NCBI RefSeq assembly: GCF_000426585.1
Contig: NZ_AUFQ01000014.1
Coordinates: 1-64,000, forward strand
Length of the DNA: 64,000 nt
Direction: 5' to 3'
From: Segatella baroniae DSM 16972 = JCM 13447
GTDB lineage: Bacteria > Bacteroidota > Bacteroidia > Bacteroidales > Bacteroidaceae
Position 1 is the first letter of the stretch. Each line of letters opens with the position of its first letter. The position numbers and the translations under genes were made by a program. The notes beneath the pieces were generated by a model that was given only the letters and a program-made list of their open reading frames with translations, was not told the DNA's origin and did no database searches. Below, piece after piece: positions 36,241 through 43,578 of the stretch.

Positions 36241-36627
36241 GTTGGAAACTATGGATATTTGAATCATACCACAAGTTCAATGCAAAAATATATAAAACTT
36301 TTGGGTCAGGTGCCAACTGAATGGACATTTTCCATTTTCTTTGGGAAAGTATGGTCTGTTTCTTTTCTTGGAGGGTTGCAATATTGTATTACCATACTCA
36401 AAAGGCGATTACAAATCAATAGAGTCATGAACAAAGTACACATTTATCAGACAGCCGATGTATGGTCTTCTGACGAATCTACTTGACAAGACGGAGATAC
36501 TGTGCCTTCCCACTATATGCTTATTTCATCGGAAATCTGGACGAAAGTGTGTGTGTTTGGCTGCCAATCTAATTTTAGGTATTTTTGTCATGAGAAACCG
36601 ACTTATTAAAAGAGTAGAAAGGAAAGC
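36241..36627. other. Intergenic stretch without recognisable gene
   Basis: About 390 bp between the interrupted gene and the sigma remnant. A 75-codon frame (36259-36486) has no recognisable features or good ribosome site, and nothing else was seen. Confidence 0.6.
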
Positions 36628-36807
36628 ATGAACTTTAATCAGAAAGAATTAAGAAAGTTGGCGGAGGGCGACGCCCGTACTTTCGCGGCTTTGCACCGAA
36701 CTTTTTTTTACCAAAGATTCATCAGTTTGCACTCATGCTACTAAAAGACAATCAAGATACCGACGACGTTTGACAAATCATCTTCATGAAAGTAAACCCG
36801 CACATCA
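36628..36807 (+). pseudogene. ECF sigma factor remnant cut off by the CRISPR array
   Basis: From ATG 36628 (with AAAGGAAAG before it) the frame reads MNFNQKELRKLAEGDARTFA then ALHRTFF, an ECF sigma N-terminus. At a run of eight T (36702-36709) the frame must shift to continue as PKIHQFALMLLKDNQDTDDV, then TGA, then QIIFMKVN, which is sigma region 2. Similarity ends where the first CRISPR repeat begins at 36808; regions 2.3 to 4 are missing. Frameshift, stop and truncation show that the gene is dead. Confidence 0.65.
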
Positions 36808-37543
36808 GTTGTGATTTGCGTGAAAACAACGACCTTTGCAGTATCAGCAACAACGCAAGGTCGGCTTCGGCTGCCAACGGACTGGTTGTGATTTGCTTGA
36901 AAACAACTACCTTTGCAGTATCGGCAACAACAGCAACTGCGAATGGCCAGTTCTATGACCAGTTGTGATTTGCTTGAAAACAACTACCTTTGCAGTATCA
37001 GCAACAACCATGCTCTGCACAATACCATTCCCGACATGTTGTGATTTGCTTGAAAACAACTACCTTTGCAGTATCGGCAACAACAGCAACTGCGAATGGC
37101 CAGTTCTATGACCAGTTGTGATTTGCTTGAAAACAACTACCTTTGCAGTATCAGCAACAACCATGCTCTGCACAATACCATTCCCGACATGTTGTGATTT
37201 GCTTGAAAACAACTACCTTTGCAGTATCAGCAACAACTCCGGCAGTACGTAGCCAAGTTCCCCAGCCGTTGTGATTTGCTTGAAAACAACTACCTTTGCA
37301 GTATCAGCAACAACTTGGTAACCTCTGGAATCCTTGTAGTTCCGTTGTGATTTGCTTGAAAACAACTACCTTTGCAGTATCAGCAACAACCATTGCTCTC
37401 AGGAGGCACACAAGGTTCAGTTGTGATTTGCTTGAAAACAACTACCTTTGCAGTATCAGCAACAACCGCCGCCCTTGAATCCCAACTTGCCGAAATGTTG
37501 TGATTTGCTTGAAAACAACTACCTTTGCAGTATCAGCAACAAC
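36808..37543 (+). CRISPR. Type II-C CRISPR array, 10 repeats and 9 spacers
   Basis: Repeats are 47 bp, beginning GTTGTGATTTGCTTG and ending CAGTATCAGCAACAAC, at 36808, 36885, 36962, 37038, 37115, 37191, 37268, 37344, 37420 and 37497. Spacers are 29-30 bp. Repeat 1 is degenerate (GCGTG for GCTTG, CAACGACC for CAACTACC); repeats 2 and 4 share a TCGGC variant. Spacers 2 and 4 are identical, as are 3 and 5, so seven of nine are unique. Length and sequence are typical of Bacteroidetes type II-C. On the plus strand, the first 20 nt of the repeat pair with the tracrRNA anti-repeat at 43507-43526. Inside each intact repeat, GTTG at positions 1-4, 19 bp, TACCTTTG at 24-31 matches a promoter. Confidence 0.98.
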
Positions 37544-37617
37544 TGATTATCTATATAATATTGATTACCAATACAATATATAGATATTGCAAAAATAAAA
37601 AAGTGATACTACAAAAC
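37544..37617. other. AT-rich flank of the array next to cas2
   Basis: The sequence after the last repeat is strongly AT-rich with an imperfect inverted repeat (CTATATAATATTG with CAATATATAG). It is where a leader would be expected if new spacers enter at the conserved-repeat end; the degenerate repeat lies at the other end. Confidence 0.45.
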
Positions 37618-37646
37618 AAAATCCCACTTGCCAAGGGTGGGATTTT
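37618..37646 (-). terminator. Terminator after cas2
   Basis: Perfect 10-bp arms AAAATCCCAC (37618-37627) and GTGGGATTTT (37637-37646) with a 9-nt loop, T-rich on the minus-strand exit side. It ends the cas9-cas1-cas2 transcript before the array. Confidence 0.8.
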
Positions 37647-37666
37647 CGTTTTCTATCAATTGAAGA

Positions 37667-38014
<348 letters not shown>

Positions 38015-38947
38015 TTACATTTCCGGATAACTGATGTGCCGGGCTTCCCCAGCAAAGCATTTTGCAAGAGACGCTGTCGTCTGTTGCGCAGCTATCATCA
38101 GTGGACTTCGCTTGCCATTCACCACAACATCCAACATCGGAATCGCCAAGAGCTGCATTTTCTGTTCTTTCGTAATTTCCGAAACTTCGCCATTGCAACG
38201 AATCATGTCAATGACAAGTTGGTCTATAAACGGACGATAGGGTTCCATGATGTCATCTGCCAAGCAATAAGCGTTGTACCGGTTGTGATGATGAATTCCC
38301 AAAGTGGGCAGTAGGCCACTCCCTACCAGCGATCGGGCTATCACTGCACGCAAGATGGCATAACCATAATTCAAAAGATTGTTGGGCGGTGCACCCTCCC
38401 GCCCACGAACAAAATCAGGATAGTCCGTAAAAAGATTACGCCAGTAGTAGGCGGCAGCCCTTGCTTCCAGATTCTCCGAATCACCACTACGAACATCGTT
38501 TGCCCATACTCGCATACAGTTGGTCTCTTTGTCAGTATTAGTTCGTAGTACATGCTCCTGGTTGAGAATCTTTTGCTTTACAGTTTGCTGCCAGAGTTGT
38601 TTACGTAATGGCAGAGAAGCTTCCAACTGCATACGGAACCGCTCGTTTTGCGTATTGTTGCCACATAACGGAAGAAGCAAACCCACGGGCATACCTTTTT
38701 GGTCACAAGTAATGACCGCACAATTATTTGCCAACAGTGCCTCAAGTACTCCGGAGGTTACTGTAATGCGCCGATTATCGAGCACGACCACCCCAATGTC
38801 TTCTATCGGGATGGTGCGCTCGGCCTCTTTTTTCAGCGTTTCGGGCAGTGTATCGTTACCTTCTACTTCAGGCAAATGCAACACCAACTGGGCATTGCGT
38901 AGACTCAGATAGATAGGATTGGTGAAGCAAAGAGTTTTCTTTATCAT
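38015..38947 (-). CDS. cas1: CRISPR-associated endonuclease Cas1
   Basis: 310 residues, type II Cas1 length. Metal-binding residues are visible as Glu161 in NLEARAAAYYW, His in LGIHHHNRYNAY (219-221) and acidic residues in LADDIMEPYRPFID (231-242). VVVLDNRRITVTSGVLEALL and CAVITCDQKGMPVG form the N-terminal beta domain. It integrates spacers together with Cas2 and, in type II, needs Cas9 for PAM choice. The gene begins 12 bp after cas9. Confidence 0.98.
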   Translation of the reverse strand: MIKKTLCFTNPIYLSLRNAQLVLHLPEVEGNDTLPETLKKEAERTIPIEDIGVVVLDNRRITVTSGVLEALLANNCAVITCDQKGMPVGLLLPLCGNNTQNERFRMQLEASLPLRKQLWQQTVKQKILNQEHVLRTNTDKETNCMRVWANDVRSGDSENLEARAAAYYWRNLFTDYPDFVRGREGAPPNNLLNYGYAILRAVIARSLVGSGLLPTLGIHHHNRYNAYCLADDIMEPYRPFIDQLVIDMIRCNGEVSEITKEQKMQLLAIPMLDVVVNGKRSPLMIAAQQTTASLAKCFAGEARHISYPEM

Positions 38948-38959
38948 AACAAGACAGCC

Positions 38960-41900
38960 TTACTTTATGACTCTGAGGATATTTCCTAACCGGTCTACAT
39001 CAAGTTTCCAGCACACGGCCTTTATCATTTCACCTGTCAAAGACTTTTGATTCTTTGATTGTGGACTACCTACTCCATATTCGTTTTGAATAATAGTACC
39101 ATTACAGAAAGACTCCGCTATCTTCTTATCCACATTATAAATAAGCCCCGCCGACCTGTGAGGAATAAAATTCGCAGTTGTACCGCTAGAATCTACAAAT
39201 TTATAGATTCTTTCCTTGTCCAATTCATTACCATTTTCTTCCCTTGGCACATACACCAAGTCGTTGGGCGACAGATAGCACTTCAAAGGAACCTCCTTTT
39301 CGTTCTTCTCCGGCACAGGAGACAGGCCCTGCTTCAGCCGTTCTGTTACCTCATTCAACGGAATGGTATCGTAGCTTCGCTTACCTTCCTCATCCTCGTA
39401 GATAGCAAAATAAAGATTGGTTCCCTTCTGAGCCTCAACATATTTATCAGCCTTATTACCAGTTTCTCCTACTTGATACTTTTCCCCCATAGTCTCTGCA
39501 ACTCTAACCTTTAGAATAGGTTGATGCTTTTTACCATCATTATAAACTGCAATGTTCTGGTTCATCTCGGCAATTCCCTCTGGTGTAAAGGTAATGGCAG
39601 GGTCTCCGCCTTTAGCTTCAAGATAGTTAAGAAGAATCTTCTGAATGCCTGTATCGGTGATTGCGTCAATGCGCTTTTTATCGAATGAGGTGTCGAGCAA
39701 CTTTCGCGTTGCCACCATAGGCTCTTTTTCATCACTGAATCGCCACACTTCCACCTTATCTATATACTGCTTGTTCCAACGGTAATCCGTGCTCTTGAAA
39801 TGAGCAAGCAACTGTTTGGTATTGAATTGCTTATCCACCAAGACATTAATATAGTCGCGCAGCTCCTTATTACAAATAGAAGAGATGTTTTCCAAAGCCT
39901 CCTTTAGCTTGACAACAGCTTTCCGGCGAAGGTTGACATGTCCGAAGACAGTCTCCTTGTGCATTGGCTTTCTCACCGCCCACATCTCGTTGCCTTTCTG
40001 CGGCACCATCGTCTTCTTGCTGTCTGCATCGTACCGTTCATAGTAATTGGTAGCTTTGTTGATGACACGAACATAATTCTTGAAGCTGACAACCACATCC
40101 TCCAATGCCGCACGCGCATCTTGCGTGAATGTTTCCCACGGCTTGCGGATGATACGATTCTTCTCGCAAAGCAACTGACGCAAGTCTTCCCGCTGCTTTG
40201 GACTTTTAGCAAACTCGTTGTTCAGGTAGTTGATGATATTGCGCGAGGCACATGCTATCACCAGCGCATCCATAGCATGATGGCGGTGATCGATACGCTT
40301 CTTGTTGAAACCAGGCAGCAATTCCATCGGAACAGAGGTCTGGAACACCCGTTTCCCTTCCTTATTCTCCCAATGTCCAAAGTTTTCTGACTTTGTCAAC
40401 CTATTGAGTCGCTCAAAACGAGAATAAACAATGCTGTTCCAAACATCATTCAGTCCCCAGTCTTTCTTCAGCCTGTCGGTAATCCCACCTGTGCAGGAAA
40501 CGACAAACTTAGACGTTGCTTCCAATTCATCTTCAGTACGGACGACATTCGAAAGCAACCCCTTCACCACCTTACTTATGTATCTACTGTCGTTCATCTG
40601 GCGGTTCAGGAACTCCTGCGGAATATCTTCCAGCAGAAGTTTCTCCTTCTTATACTTGTTATTGGAATAATGTTCGGTAACGAAAGTCTTGTATTCACTC
40701 TCGCTGAAAACCTTTACATCGCCCAGCATCGTGCAGTGGACAATCTCGCCACCATGATTTTTGATAAACTCATAGCCCAGCATATTGCTCTTCAGCGTAT
40801 TCACTTCCGACTCGCAAATCACCTTGTTGTTAAAAGAATCATCGAAGTAACGGCTTTGCGGAATGACATGTTCTATCTGATAGGCCGAAGTAAAGAGCTT
40901 GGACAGAGAGATGGACTTTCCTGTATAGGGCGACCGATACTTCTGTTCCAACCACAGTTTATACCTTAAAAGTTCTTTCGCCGAAGGTTGTGCCATCTTC
41001 GATATCTTGGAAATCTCTGCATACTCGGTATCATCTTTGGTCAACTGCTGCAAAGCTCCTTCTTCGTAGATACGCAATATCTCCTGTTGCATTGGCGAGT
41101 AAGGGCGTACATCCTTGACGTCAGCATCATTTTTAAGTTCCATCAACAGGCATTTGATGCGCAAATTGGTGTTTTCATTTCTCAATATATTCTTCGTCAT
41201 GTGCGCACGCTGCTCGGCCGTACTCTTCATTCTGCGTCCAAGTTCTACATGAATCTCATCTATGTGTCCTGCTTCTTTCCATATATCGTGAACCGTTCGG
41301 AGTGTTTCGAGGATACACTGCTCTACGATAGGATTGCGAAGCGAATGCTGTCTGAAGCCTTTAATGTATGACAGCAGTTTATCCGGAGAGTCCCAACGCA
41401 GTATATGCGTTGCCTCTGAATGCCGACCATACACGACATAACACGCCAGCCATTCGGGCAGACCTTGGAAATCGGCAAGATGGCTGAAAGAATAAGCCGC
41501 ATGACCCATCCGCTCTCGTATTTTCTCCTCTATATCTCCCTGCACAATACGTTCTATTCTATCTCTTGTCTGCTTGCAGATATCCTCCTCGTGCCACCAA
41601 CTGCCCATACGCATGACAGCCAACAGCTTCTTCACGGCTTTCTCCGAGTAGGCTCCATAATCTTTCTTGAAGGGTTTCACCTTCAGGAAGGCACCGGCAA
41701 ACTCGTCATCATCCCTTAGCTTGTGCAGCGCACCTTCGGCTTCGTCTCTGGCTTCCACCGAATAGAGCAAGTGCCAAAGCCTGTATTGAAGTTCCGAATC
41801 GTCGAGCCAGCTACGATCCATGCCTGCTCTGTCGAGCGCAAGAAGCAGTTCGTGCCTCGTCTCATTACAGGGATACTTCTTCTCCTTGTCTTCTATATAG

Positions 41901-43453
41901 TTCCAACGGATGGCAAACTCTTTTTCGGCACCTATCTTTACCTTCTTCAATCCAAAGAAATCCTTCAGCAATGTCTCCTGATTGATTTCCTTCCGGTCGT
42001 TCAAATAAGCAAACAAACGGGCGTAATCTTCCCTCGAACGGAGATATTCGGCAGTCACCTCCTTGTCGTCAGTCCTGTCAAAGAGCCTTAGATTGACGAT
42101 AAACTGCCACAGGCGGAACTCCTGATAATAGGGATTCGACTTCGCGACACACTTGATTCCTTGCCGTTTTTTCTTTCCTTTCTCTTTATCCTTATATTTA
42201 TAATACTCGTAAGGACACTCGGCAATCAGCGATTTCTTGCTTTTCAACGGACGCTGATAGAAGATAAGGTCGGTCAGAAGCAGGTAAACCATGTCTTTCT
42301 TCATCAAGCTGTCCCGATGGGGTTGATTGCTTTGATACAATTCTTCCGCACACTTTGCCAGCATTTCCCTGCTTTGCAGTTCCTCGTGATGCTTGCTTTG
42401 CTCACGCAAGATAGCTTCCAGTTCCTGTTTATAATATTTGCGTTCAATAGTACGGATGAAGTTTCCACGAATCTTATCGACAGGTTCTGCCAGCAAATGG
42501 TCGTAGATAAAGGCACCGACGGTCTTGCCCGAGTCTTCCAACTGCGACTCGGTACGTTTCTTCCGAAGCCCCCAATCGTTTTCATCCGGTGCACGGAACG
42601 ACCGCTTGACTTCACCGTCCTTATCTTTCTTGAGAGTCGTTCCGTCCTTCTCATACTCGGTGGTTACAATGAACTGCTTGATCTTTCCTACCCAATCATC
42701 CAAGGCTATCTTGCTGGGACAGGGGTATATCCATCCGTTTTCCAACTGAACACGATACCAGGTATTGCCCCCTTTTCCTTCTTCTGCGACTTCTATGCTG
42801 ACTACTTTCAGCTCATAGTATTCCTCGCGCTTCGTTGGATTTTCTTCTTCCTCCTCCCCGCGCAGCTGATAATATCCTCGTTTCTGATTGAAGTTAAGCA
42901 GTATCCACGCCAACTCCTCTTTGCCGACAGCTTGCGAGAGGGCCTTTTTCCGCAGGAAATAGAGTGTCCAGTCCAACGGGATCTTCCTTCCGTCAGCCAC
43001 CAATGCAGGCTGATGACGGGCGAAATTGGCCATCATTTCGTGGAAGGAGTCCATGAAAAGGAAACGCATGGAGCCATCCTCAAGACGTTCCCAGGCCAAC
43101 TTGGGCTCGCCATGATTGAGGAATTTGCCATAAGTGGAGGCTTCTTCCCTATTCCACCCTATTGCGGAATCGTAGTGAGGGGGCAGAAATCCCATCACGT
43201 GCAACACTCTGTGCAAGCGCTCCCGCCGCAGCAACGAACGCTCCCTTATCCTCCGAACGCTTCGAAAACCAGTACGAATAGCCGTCTGCGATTCCGTCAC
43301 TCCCTTGTCAAAGTTGCCTAAGATGTCCTGACTCATCGGAATGATGCGGCTACCCAATTTAATGTCATGCAAGTAATTTCCATGGTCGTCAACAGAGACT
43401 TTAGCCCAACCAATACTATTGGTTCCCAAGTCTAATCCAAGAATTGTTTTCAT
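38960..43453 (-). CDS. cas9: CRISPR-associated endonuclease Cas9, type II-C, large form
   Basis: 1497 residues. RuvC-I is ILGLDLGTNSIGWAKV with Asp8. The Arg-rich bridge helix is at about 60-85 (RSVRRIRERSLLRRERLHRV). The helical REC lobe follows. RuvC-II is HIDEIHVELGRRMK with Glu737; HNH is YQIEHVIPQSRYFDDSFNNK with His862; RuvC-III is RIDHRHHAMDALV with His1059 and Asp1062. The C-terminus should hold the PAM-interacting domain. All nuclease residues are intact, so a double-strand-cutting enzyme is expected. At about 1500 residues it belongs with the long Bacteroidetes II-C proteins. No Csn2 or Cas4 is present, which defines subtype C. Confidence 0.98.
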   Translation of the reverse strand: MKTILGLDLGTNSIGWAKVSVDDHGNYLHDIKLGSRIIPMSQDILGNFDKGVTESQTAIRTGFRSVRRIRERSLLRRERLHRVLHVMGFLPPHYDSAIGWNREEASTYGKFLNHGEPKLAWERLEDGSMRFLFMDSFHEMMANFARHQPALVADGRKIPLDWTLYFLRKKALSQAVGKEELAWILLNFNQKRGYYQLRGEEEEENPTKREEYYELKVVSIEVAEEGKGGNTWYRVQLENGWIYPCPSKIALDDWVGKIKQFIVTTEYEKDGTTLKKDKDGEVKRSFRAPDENDWGLRKKRTESQLEDSGKTVGAFIYDHLLAEPVDKIRGNFIRTIERKYYKQELEAILREQSKHHEELQSREMLAKCAEELYQSNQPHRDSLMKKDMVYLLLTDLIFYQRPLKSKKSLIAECPYEYYKYKDKEKGKKKRQGIKCVAKSNPYYQEFRLWQFIVNLRLFDRTDDKEVTAEYLRSREDYARLFAYLNDRKEINQETLLKDFFGLKKVKIGAEKEFAIRWNYIEDKEKKYPCNETRHELLLALDRAGMDRSWLDDSELQYRLWHLLYSVEARDEAEGALHKLRDDDEFAGAFLKVKPFKKDYGAYSEKAVKKLLAVMRMGSWWHEEDICKQTRDRIERIVQGDIEEKIRERMGHAAYSFSHLADFQGLPEWLACYVVYGRHSEATHILRWDSPDKLLSYIKGFRQHSLRNPIVEQCILETLRTVHDIWKEAGHIDEIHVELGRRMKSTAEQRAHMTKNILRNENTNLRIKCLLMELKNDADVKDVRPYSPMQQEILRIYEEGALQQLTKDDTEYAEISKISKMAQPSAKELLRYKLWLEQKYRSPYTGKSISLSKLFTSAYQIEHVIPQSRYFDDSFNNKVICESEVNTLKSNMLGYEFIKNHGGEIVHCTMLGDVKVFSESEYKTFVTEHYSNNKYKKEKLLLEDIPQEFLNRQMNDSRYISKVVKGLLSNVVRTEDELEATSKFVVSCTGGITDRLKKDWGLNDVWNSIVYSRFERLNRLTKSENFGHWENKEGKRVFQTSVPMELLPGFNKKRIDHRHHAMDALVIACASRNIINYLNNEFAKSPKQREDLRQLLCEKNRIIRKPWETFTQDARAALEDVVVSFKNYVRVINKATNYYERYDADSKKTMVPQKGNEMWAVRKPMHKETVFGHVNLRRKAVVKLKEALENISSICNKELRDYINVLVDKQFNTKQLLAHFKSTDYRWNKQYIDKVEVWRFSDEKEPMVATRKLLDTSFDKKRIDAITDTGIQKILLNYLEAKGGDPAITFTPEGIAEMNQNIAVYNDGKKHQPILKVRVAETMGEKYQVGETGNKADKYVEAQKGTNLYFAIYEDEEGKRSYDTIPLNEVTERLKQGLSPVPEKNEKEVPLKCYLSPNDLVYVPREENGNELDKERIYKFVDSSGTTANFIPHRSAGLIYNVDKKIAESFCNGTIIQNEYGVGSPQSKNQKSLTGEMIKAVCWKLDVDRLGNILRVIK

Positions 43454-43469: not shown

Positions 43470-43501
43470 TTTGGTTCTTAGTTATTAATTGTTTATATTT
43501 G
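43470..43501 (+). promoter_or_regulatory. tracrRNA promoter
   Basis: TTTG (43470-43473), 20 bp, TATATTTG (43494-43501) is a full Bacteroidetes -33/-7 match. Transcription would start at about 43507, exactly where the anti-repeat begins, and runs away from cas9. Confidence 0.75.
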
Positions 43502-43506
43502 CGGCT

Positions 43507-43578
43507 GTTTTCAAGCAAGTCACAATAAGGATTATTCCGTTGTGAAAACAAACAAGGCGGGGCAACTCGCCTTTCTTT
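43507..43578 (+). ncRNA. tracrRNA
   Basis: The anti-repeat at 43507-43526 pairs with the first 20 nt of the CRISPR repeat without interruption, using two G-U wobbles (repeat positions 1 and 8). It is followed by AAGGATTATTCCG, a nexus-like hairpin (GGA 43529-43531, TCC 43536-43538), and by a terminator stem AAGGCG (43554-43559)/CGCCTT (43568-43573) with tail TCTTT. The predicted RNA is about 72 nt. With crRNA it would load Cas9, after cutting of the duplex by RNase III. Ends are inferred. Confidence 0.85.

Follow-up and report, generated by a model that had tools for sequence, protein, structure and literature searches.

Where do the crRNAs of the CRISPR array in Segatella baroniae DSM 16972 = JCM 13447 begin: at one promoter in front of the array, or at a promoter carried by every repeat? 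The window, by which we mean the whole stretch of 64,000 nt that was analysed, contains a type II-C CRISPR-Cas locus in which cas9, cas1 and cas2 are adjacent, with no fourth cas gene among them and with coaBC beyond cas9. The nearest Cas9 proteins found are from Prevotella species. The features of the locus are the following, all -7 and -33 boxes being candidates.

36556..36587, + strand: external promoter match of canonical form (TTTG-N20-TATTTTTG), lying 220 nt 5' of the array
36808..37543, + strand (crRNA strand, set by the anti-repeat): CRISPR array of ten 47-nt repeats
36808..36854, + strand: oldest (5'-most) repeat, degenerate, with T13G and T24G and its box as GACCTTTG (letters read)
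36885..36888, + strand: GTTG, -33 box of repeat 2 (likewise at positions 1-4 of every other repeat), gap of 19 to the -7 box
36908..36915, + strand: -7 box TACCTTTG, repeat 2
36985..36992, + strand: -7 box, repeat 3
37061..37068, + strand: -7 box, repeat 4
37138..37145, + strand: -7 box, repeat 5
37214..37221, + strand: -7 box, repeat 6
37291..37298, + strand: -7 box, repeat 7
37367..37374, + strand: -7 box, repeat 8
37443..37450, + strand: -7 box, repeat 9
37520..37527, + strand: -7 box, repeat 10 (the repeat nearest cas2; transcription from it would enter the presumed leader)
37618..37646, + strand: terminator-like hairpin (two overlapping calls) that could end array transcripts
37667..38008, - strand: cas2 (TIGR01573)
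38015..38947, - strand: cas1, type II (TIGR03639)
38960..43453, - strand: cas9, 1497 aa (TIGR01865)
43470..43501, + strand: tracrRNA promoter match, TTTG-N20-TATATTTG, closely 5' of the anti-repeat
43507..43525, + strand: tracrRNA anti-repeat, upstream of cas9, pairing with repeat positions about 1-20

The 47-nt repeats start at 36808, 36885, 36962, 37038, 37115, 37191, 37268, 37344, 37420 and 37497. The anti-repeat on the + strand complements the first part of the + strand repeat, and both crRNAs and tracrRNA are therefore assigned to the + strand. As type II-C requires, the array runs opposite to the cas genes and has its oldest repeat, recognizable by its degeneration, at the 5' end. A tandem duplication of two repeat-spacer units at 36880-37185 (153 nt, 99% alike) means that two spacers are present twice. 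The 5' flank of the array (36628-36807) holds a broken reading frame, MNFNQKELRKLAEGDARTFAALHRTFFYQRF..., with in-frame stops, which by eye looks like the start of an ECF sigma factor; a Pfam search with the 38 residues before its first stop gave no match. Rfam at gathering scores likewise returned no match, the viral contigs searched held no relative, and the plasmids searched gave one weak match.

The sequence-only reading had claimed that GTTG, 19 bp and then TACCTTTG occur in each intact repeat, and this holds: GTTG occupies positions 1-4 in all ten repeats, and TACCTTTG lies at positions 24-31 in nine of ten. A repeat-embedded II-C promoter requires a motif at a fixed place and strand, which is what these 9/10 repeats possess. 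TACCTTTG fits the -7 consensus TAnnTTTG, as the consensus is given in the accessible text of PMC7366714. The corresponding -33 element (TTTG or TTG, at a gap of 19-20) is provided by the TTG of GTTG at gap 19, with only three of the four letters of TTTG present. GTTG is the less informative box, being the near-invariant start of the repeat (89/90 distinct long repeats, defined below) and lying inside the half that pairs with the tracrRNA. A simple scan of 36400-37700 for sigma-70 promoters found none on the + strand and a single site on the - strand, outside the array.

We put at about 0.8 the probability that each intact repeat holds a promoter for the primary Bacteroidota sigma factor, with TAnnTTTG at 24-31 as the -7 box and the TTG of GTTG, 19 nt away, as the -33 box, facing the following spacer and directing + strand transcription toward cas2. 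This reading is built from sequence, position, strand, conservation, a preferred spacing, a box that for the most part does not pair with the tracrRNA, and the coupling between box and external promoter seen in the window's family. The earlier suggestion that the II-C layout is realized here with another promoter code thus gains from the comparison, which supports a Bacteroidota-type promoter in each intact repeat. Among the points that weigh against the reading are the damaged box in the window's oldest repeat and the small number of exact boxes outside the family (13/38).

For the comparison, Cas9 was searched in 251 family, 395 phylum and 395 class genomes, and 160 regions were taken from part of the matches; six Prevotellaceae loci with names were added and counted with the window's family. 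Further Cas9 matches in searches of the genus (200 genomes) and order (295 genomes) stand outside the comparison set. Our own finder detected 138 arrays in the window and in loci L062-L228 without L148, with repeats mostly of 44-49 nt or 36 nt and one of 57 nt; loci without a detected array do not enter the counts. All arrays were oriented by likeness to three typed prefixes, and "reverse strand" is relative to that orientation. From the long group we left out L103 (identical to L062), L153 and L184 (orientation failed) and L167 (57 nt), which gives 97 arrays with 90 distinct repeats; by eye, L153 is without a box and L184 carries TATCTTTG. The chance level for the box was taken from 300 dinucleotide shuffles of the repeat part from position 17 on.

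The check proposed with the sequence-only reading, a comparison of the boxes across Bacteroidetes II-C repeats, came out in its favour. An exact TAnnTTTG starting at positions 19-30 is present in 60 of the 90 distinct 44-49-nt repeats (shuffles: mean 1.3, maximum 5), starting at position 24 in 45 and at 23 in 11, and at least five of the six box letters occur in 81/90 (shuffles: mean 15, maximum 25). On the reverse strand, exact matches number 0/90. Within the window's family the exact box is found in 47/52 distinct repeats and at least 5/6 letters in 49/52; outside the family the corresponding counts are 13/38 and 32/38.

Pairing with the tracrRNA covers a different part of the repeat. In the 86 loci with an anti-repeat, located for this count by repeat positions 2-17, the paired fraction is at least 0.87 at positions 1-15, 0.44 at 16, 0.93 at 17 and 0.81 at 18, falls to 0.19-0.62 at positions 19-30 (at most 0.50 at 21-30) and reaches 0.70 at 31. 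Since pairing fades after position 18, it does not explain the box. The tracrRNA itself seems to be preceded by the same kind of promoter: TAnnTTTG lies within 60 nt upstream of the anti-repeat in 63/86 loci. Of these 63, 54 have it 8-11 nt before the complement of repeat position 17, and 42 have a TTG ahead of it at one of the gaps 19 and 20.

That the spacing between the repeat's two boxes is an allowed one, as had been claimed, is supported by other promoters of the same loci. Among 780 intergenic TAnnTTTG boxes of Bacteroidia loci, counted with the arrays masked, 91 are preceded by TTG at gap 19 and 108 at gap 20, while every other gap between 8 and 33 accounts for 9-41 of them (mean 18). 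With stricter masking, gaps 19 and 20 account for 66 and 91 of 486 boxes in the family and for 19 and 8 of 226 in other Bacteroidia. The gap in the repeats is 19 where the box starts at 24, and 18, a non-preferred gap, where it starts at 23. TTG is also commoner at gap 12 in the family (31/486) and at gap 13 in other Bacteroidia (15/226), and CRISPR repeats with the box at 24 also have TTG at gap 12. There may be a second upstream element besides TTG at gap 19-20.

A different account would have one long precursor made from an external upstream promoter, here the match at 36556-36587, with the embedded boxes weak or silent. Because this canonical match lies 220 nt 5' of the array, an external source of transcription is possible in this strain, and the damaged box of the first repeat would agree with it. 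We defined an external promoter as TTG-N18..21-TAnnTTTG within 150 nt upstream of the outermost repeat. In the family, such a promoter stands before all four boxless arrays (L087, L190, L191 and L223), which also speaks for a precursor from outside where the box is missing, but before 0/41 box-bearing arrays (Fisher 7e-6; 0.34 expected by chance in these 41). Extending the range to 300 nt brings the box-bearing family arrays only to 2/40, the window being one of the two. Moreover, silent boxes would hardly persist in 47/52 family repeats, and we regard the single external precursor as unlikely for the window. L191, with 36-nt repeats, joined the boxless group after its flank had been seen; without it the contrast is 3/3 versus 0/41. 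The coupling of a missing box with an external promoter, although post hoc and seen in four arrays, appears to be the strongest evidence for a promoter in the repeat.

The external promoters start 111 (L087), 38 (L190), 96 (L191) and 37 nt (L223) upstream of their arrays, and their sequences differ. In a quick Cas9 tree of 77 proteins, L087 groups with L191 (support 100), L190 falls among box-bearing rows and L223 is placed elsewhere on a long branch; the four arrays thus occupy three places in the tree and about three changes are likely, the placement of L223 being unsure. At the box site their repeats read TACGAAAG, TATTGAGA, TATCAGAA and TATCGAAC, respectively, for which another sigma code or plain loss is possible. 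Outside the family, external promoters within 150 nt were found in 0/28 box-bearing and 0/6 boxless arrays (one of the six, L165, has masked letters there), which either argues against a general rule or means that the pattern TTG-N18..21-TAnnTTTG misses the promoters. We lean slightly toward a wider picture in which Bacteroidia II-C arrays would carry a promoter in every repeat or once in front, hardly ever both. The promoter would have moved out about three times in one family, replaced each time by an external one at the old end of the array, so that repeats would have gained and lost their role as promoters in an otherwise unchanged system. Some boxless arrays outside the family, with neither arrangement, would need another promoter code.

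A further explanation is that selection keeps the box for some purpose unrelated to transcription, for instance recognition of the repeat by Cas1-Cas2, and that its likeness to a promoter is only apparent. The second n of the box is C in 60/60 exact distinct boxes, compared with 99/240 family promoters, and this invariant C is a tighter constraint than promoter function alone asks for. Similarly, some repeats outside the family (L116, L138, L140, L158, L160, L164 and L187) keep CTTTG without the TA (GATCTTTG). However, the missing box is accompanied by an external promoter in 4/4 family arrays, the gap and strand of the boxes match the promoter grammar of the same loci, and the boxless L190 holds 21 repeats, so that acquisition did not need the box there. 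Such a role is, in our judgement, as improbable as the external precursor. That the motif is a functionless relic of ancestry or chance in a slowly changing repeat is very improbable, for although many repeats are related and exact boxes drop to 17 (32 with at least 5/6 letters) among 40 representatives under 80% identity, columns 24-31 of the 64 distinct 47-nt repeats average 1.0 bit as opposed to 0.4 in columns 32-42, where positions 36, 37 and 39 reach 0.7-0.9 bit and are about as conserved as parts of the box.

If the promoter lies in the repeat, the primary sigma factor would recognize the -7 box together with TTG as the -33 box, and transcription would, given the usual geometry of such promoters, begin at about repeat position 35-37, which is 10-12 nt ahead of the spacer. 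In Neisseria, transcription starts in the spacer; the start predicted for the window, unlike that one, would leave a repeat-derived 5' tag. Each RNA would begin with the last 10-12 nt or so of a repeat, continue through the spacer and the repeat after it, and probably run on toward the hairpin at 37618-37646. The crRNAs would next be produced by Cas9, host nucleases and the tracrRNA, itself presumably transcribed from a separate promoter of this type, and the 5' tag would presumably be trimmed. Where the repeat has 36 nt, as in L116, transcription would begin roughly where the spacer does, which is the situation in Neisseria.

The sequence-only reading had further expected short crRNAs without a long precursor, and this part is not supported. 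Terminator-like sites in 36400-37700 number three in all (shuffles: mean 1.3), and the sole + strand place, at 37618-37646, lies after the array; transcripts started in a repeat would therefore read through the units that come next. A canonical promoter match on the - strand (37620-37590), between cas2 and the array and pointing into the array, was taken as chance, as the 3'-flank test was positive in 1/65 box-bearing arrays.

Promoters in the repeats of II-C arrays are described for Neisseria meningitidis, Campylobacter jejuni and Clostridium cellulolyticum in the accessible parts of PMC7038990 and PMC12080349. According to the same texts, in these three systems the array runs against the cas genes, the promoter sits in the 3' part of the repeat and spacers are added at the 3' end, which matches the layout read here for the window. 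In C. cellulolyticum and N. meningitidis the extended -10 lies in the last nine nt of the repeat (available text of PMC7038990), whereas TAnnTTTG in the window ends 16 nt before the end of the 47-nt repeat, and the start would therefore fall inside the repeat. A Bacteroidetes-type promoter encoded in the repeat has been proposed for Flavobacterium columnare and F. psychrophilum; the proposal started from a TTG located 33 or 35 bp ahead of every spacer and had the array transcribed in the direction of its variable end, as predicted for the window. In the sections of PMC8092290 and PMC10309648 available, however, TTG is the one repeat element mentioned, TAnnTTTG is given for the cas9 promoter of F. 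psychrophilum and for nothing else, and the direction in F. columnare is based on eight reads. CRISPR1 of Riemerella anatipestifer (II-C, 47-bp repeat), compared here by its published description, resembles the window in gene order, repeat length and an anti-repeat upstream of cas9, but its authors found no promoter in the repeat and proposed one in the leader (PMC5006608, in part); the accessible part of PMC6008519 adds no transcript map for it.

When the repeat that PMC5608340 prints for Prevotella intermedia is turned round by eye, its positions 24-31 read TATCTTTG, and the portion of that paper available names no promoter there. The start-site map of Bacteroides thetaiotaomicron, as far as PMC7366714 is accessible, includes no CRISPR, and its authors note that the -33 motif was not found in Flavobacterium johnsoniae. 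A word search of PMC12080349 gave no term beginning with Bacteroid- or Flavobacteri-. Repeat-embedded II-C promoters and the TTG-type proposal for Flavobacterium are thus already known; the TAnnTTTG -7 box in CRISPR repeats and the relocation of the promoter were not found in print in the openly accessible literature, covered largely without full text.

If the proposed reading is true, many Bacteroidia II-C arrays can do without a leader promoter, every spacer would be expressed independently, wherever it stands in the array, and the central part of the repeat would be a promoter and not free sequence. It would also explain how arrays running toward their young end are expressed, and it would bear on the published view of promoterless Riemerella repeats, known to us by published description. 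Arrays with the box in the repeat and arrays with a promoter in front would form natural pairs for testing why II-C systems place the promoter in the repeat.

Among 33 distinct 36-nt repeats, two have exact boxes and nine have at least 5/6 letters. A length of 47 nt as a requirement for the promoter was rejected, as the 36-nt repeats L116, L126, L152 and L157 have 5/6 box letters at 23 or 24. The family's 36-nt arrays of the GTTGTGGTTTGATGT type have no box in the repeat, and 9/10 have TAnnTTTG in the 150-nt 5' flank (1.2 expected), starting 90-94 nt before the first repeat in seven of the eight positive arrays examined for position; TTG at gap 18-21 before these flank boxes was found in none. 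At the visible 3' end, 6/9 GTTGTGGTTTGATGT-type arrays are eroded at the last repeat and none at the first, while long arrays erode at the first repeat and in 0/96 at the last; leader-driven and repeat-driven arrays therefore have opposite old ends. Eight 36-nt arrays with GTTGTGGTTTGATTAAAG repeats (L109, L115, L118, L119, L128, L129, L132 and L182), presumably from Flavobacterium and kin, lack TAnnTTTG both in the repeat and in the 5' flank (150 nt).

Published data on 357 II-C systems place the changes in the oldest repeat mostly within its first 15 nt, which is explained as avoidance of extraneous crRNA (PMC12080349, section 16). Among our long arrays with a visible 5' end, the outermost repeat is eroded in 39/77, and 34 with at least 5/6 box letters were tested. 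All six box letters are intact in 28/34 and lost in six (L062, L067, L074, L215, L218 and L227). Erosion ends before the box in 27/34, compared with 60% in a simulation of uniform erosion (p 0.013), and some remnants lie upstream of a whole repeat. In the kept part of the oldest repeats, substitutions affect 1/366 of the specified letters (the window's own T24G), 3/122 of the nn positions and 14/952 of the tail (p about 0.05). Only 1/27 eroded oldest repeats retains a -33 TTG at either preferred gap (19 or 20), and their promoter would therefore be weak. As evidence of selection on the box, the oldest repeat is thus equivocal, with statistically weak contrasts. Boxless 36-nt arrays (L128, L134, L135, L137 and L147) are also eroded at the first repeat, and erosion alone is therefore not specific.

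By eye, the repeat box and the tracrRNA box co-vary in L117 and L125 (both TAnnTTTA) and perhaps in L166 and L185, which is not general. L165, L166, L185 and L167 are long arrays with unusual repeats; repeat-like sequence is found in the flank of L165 and L166, and L165 contains masked letters.
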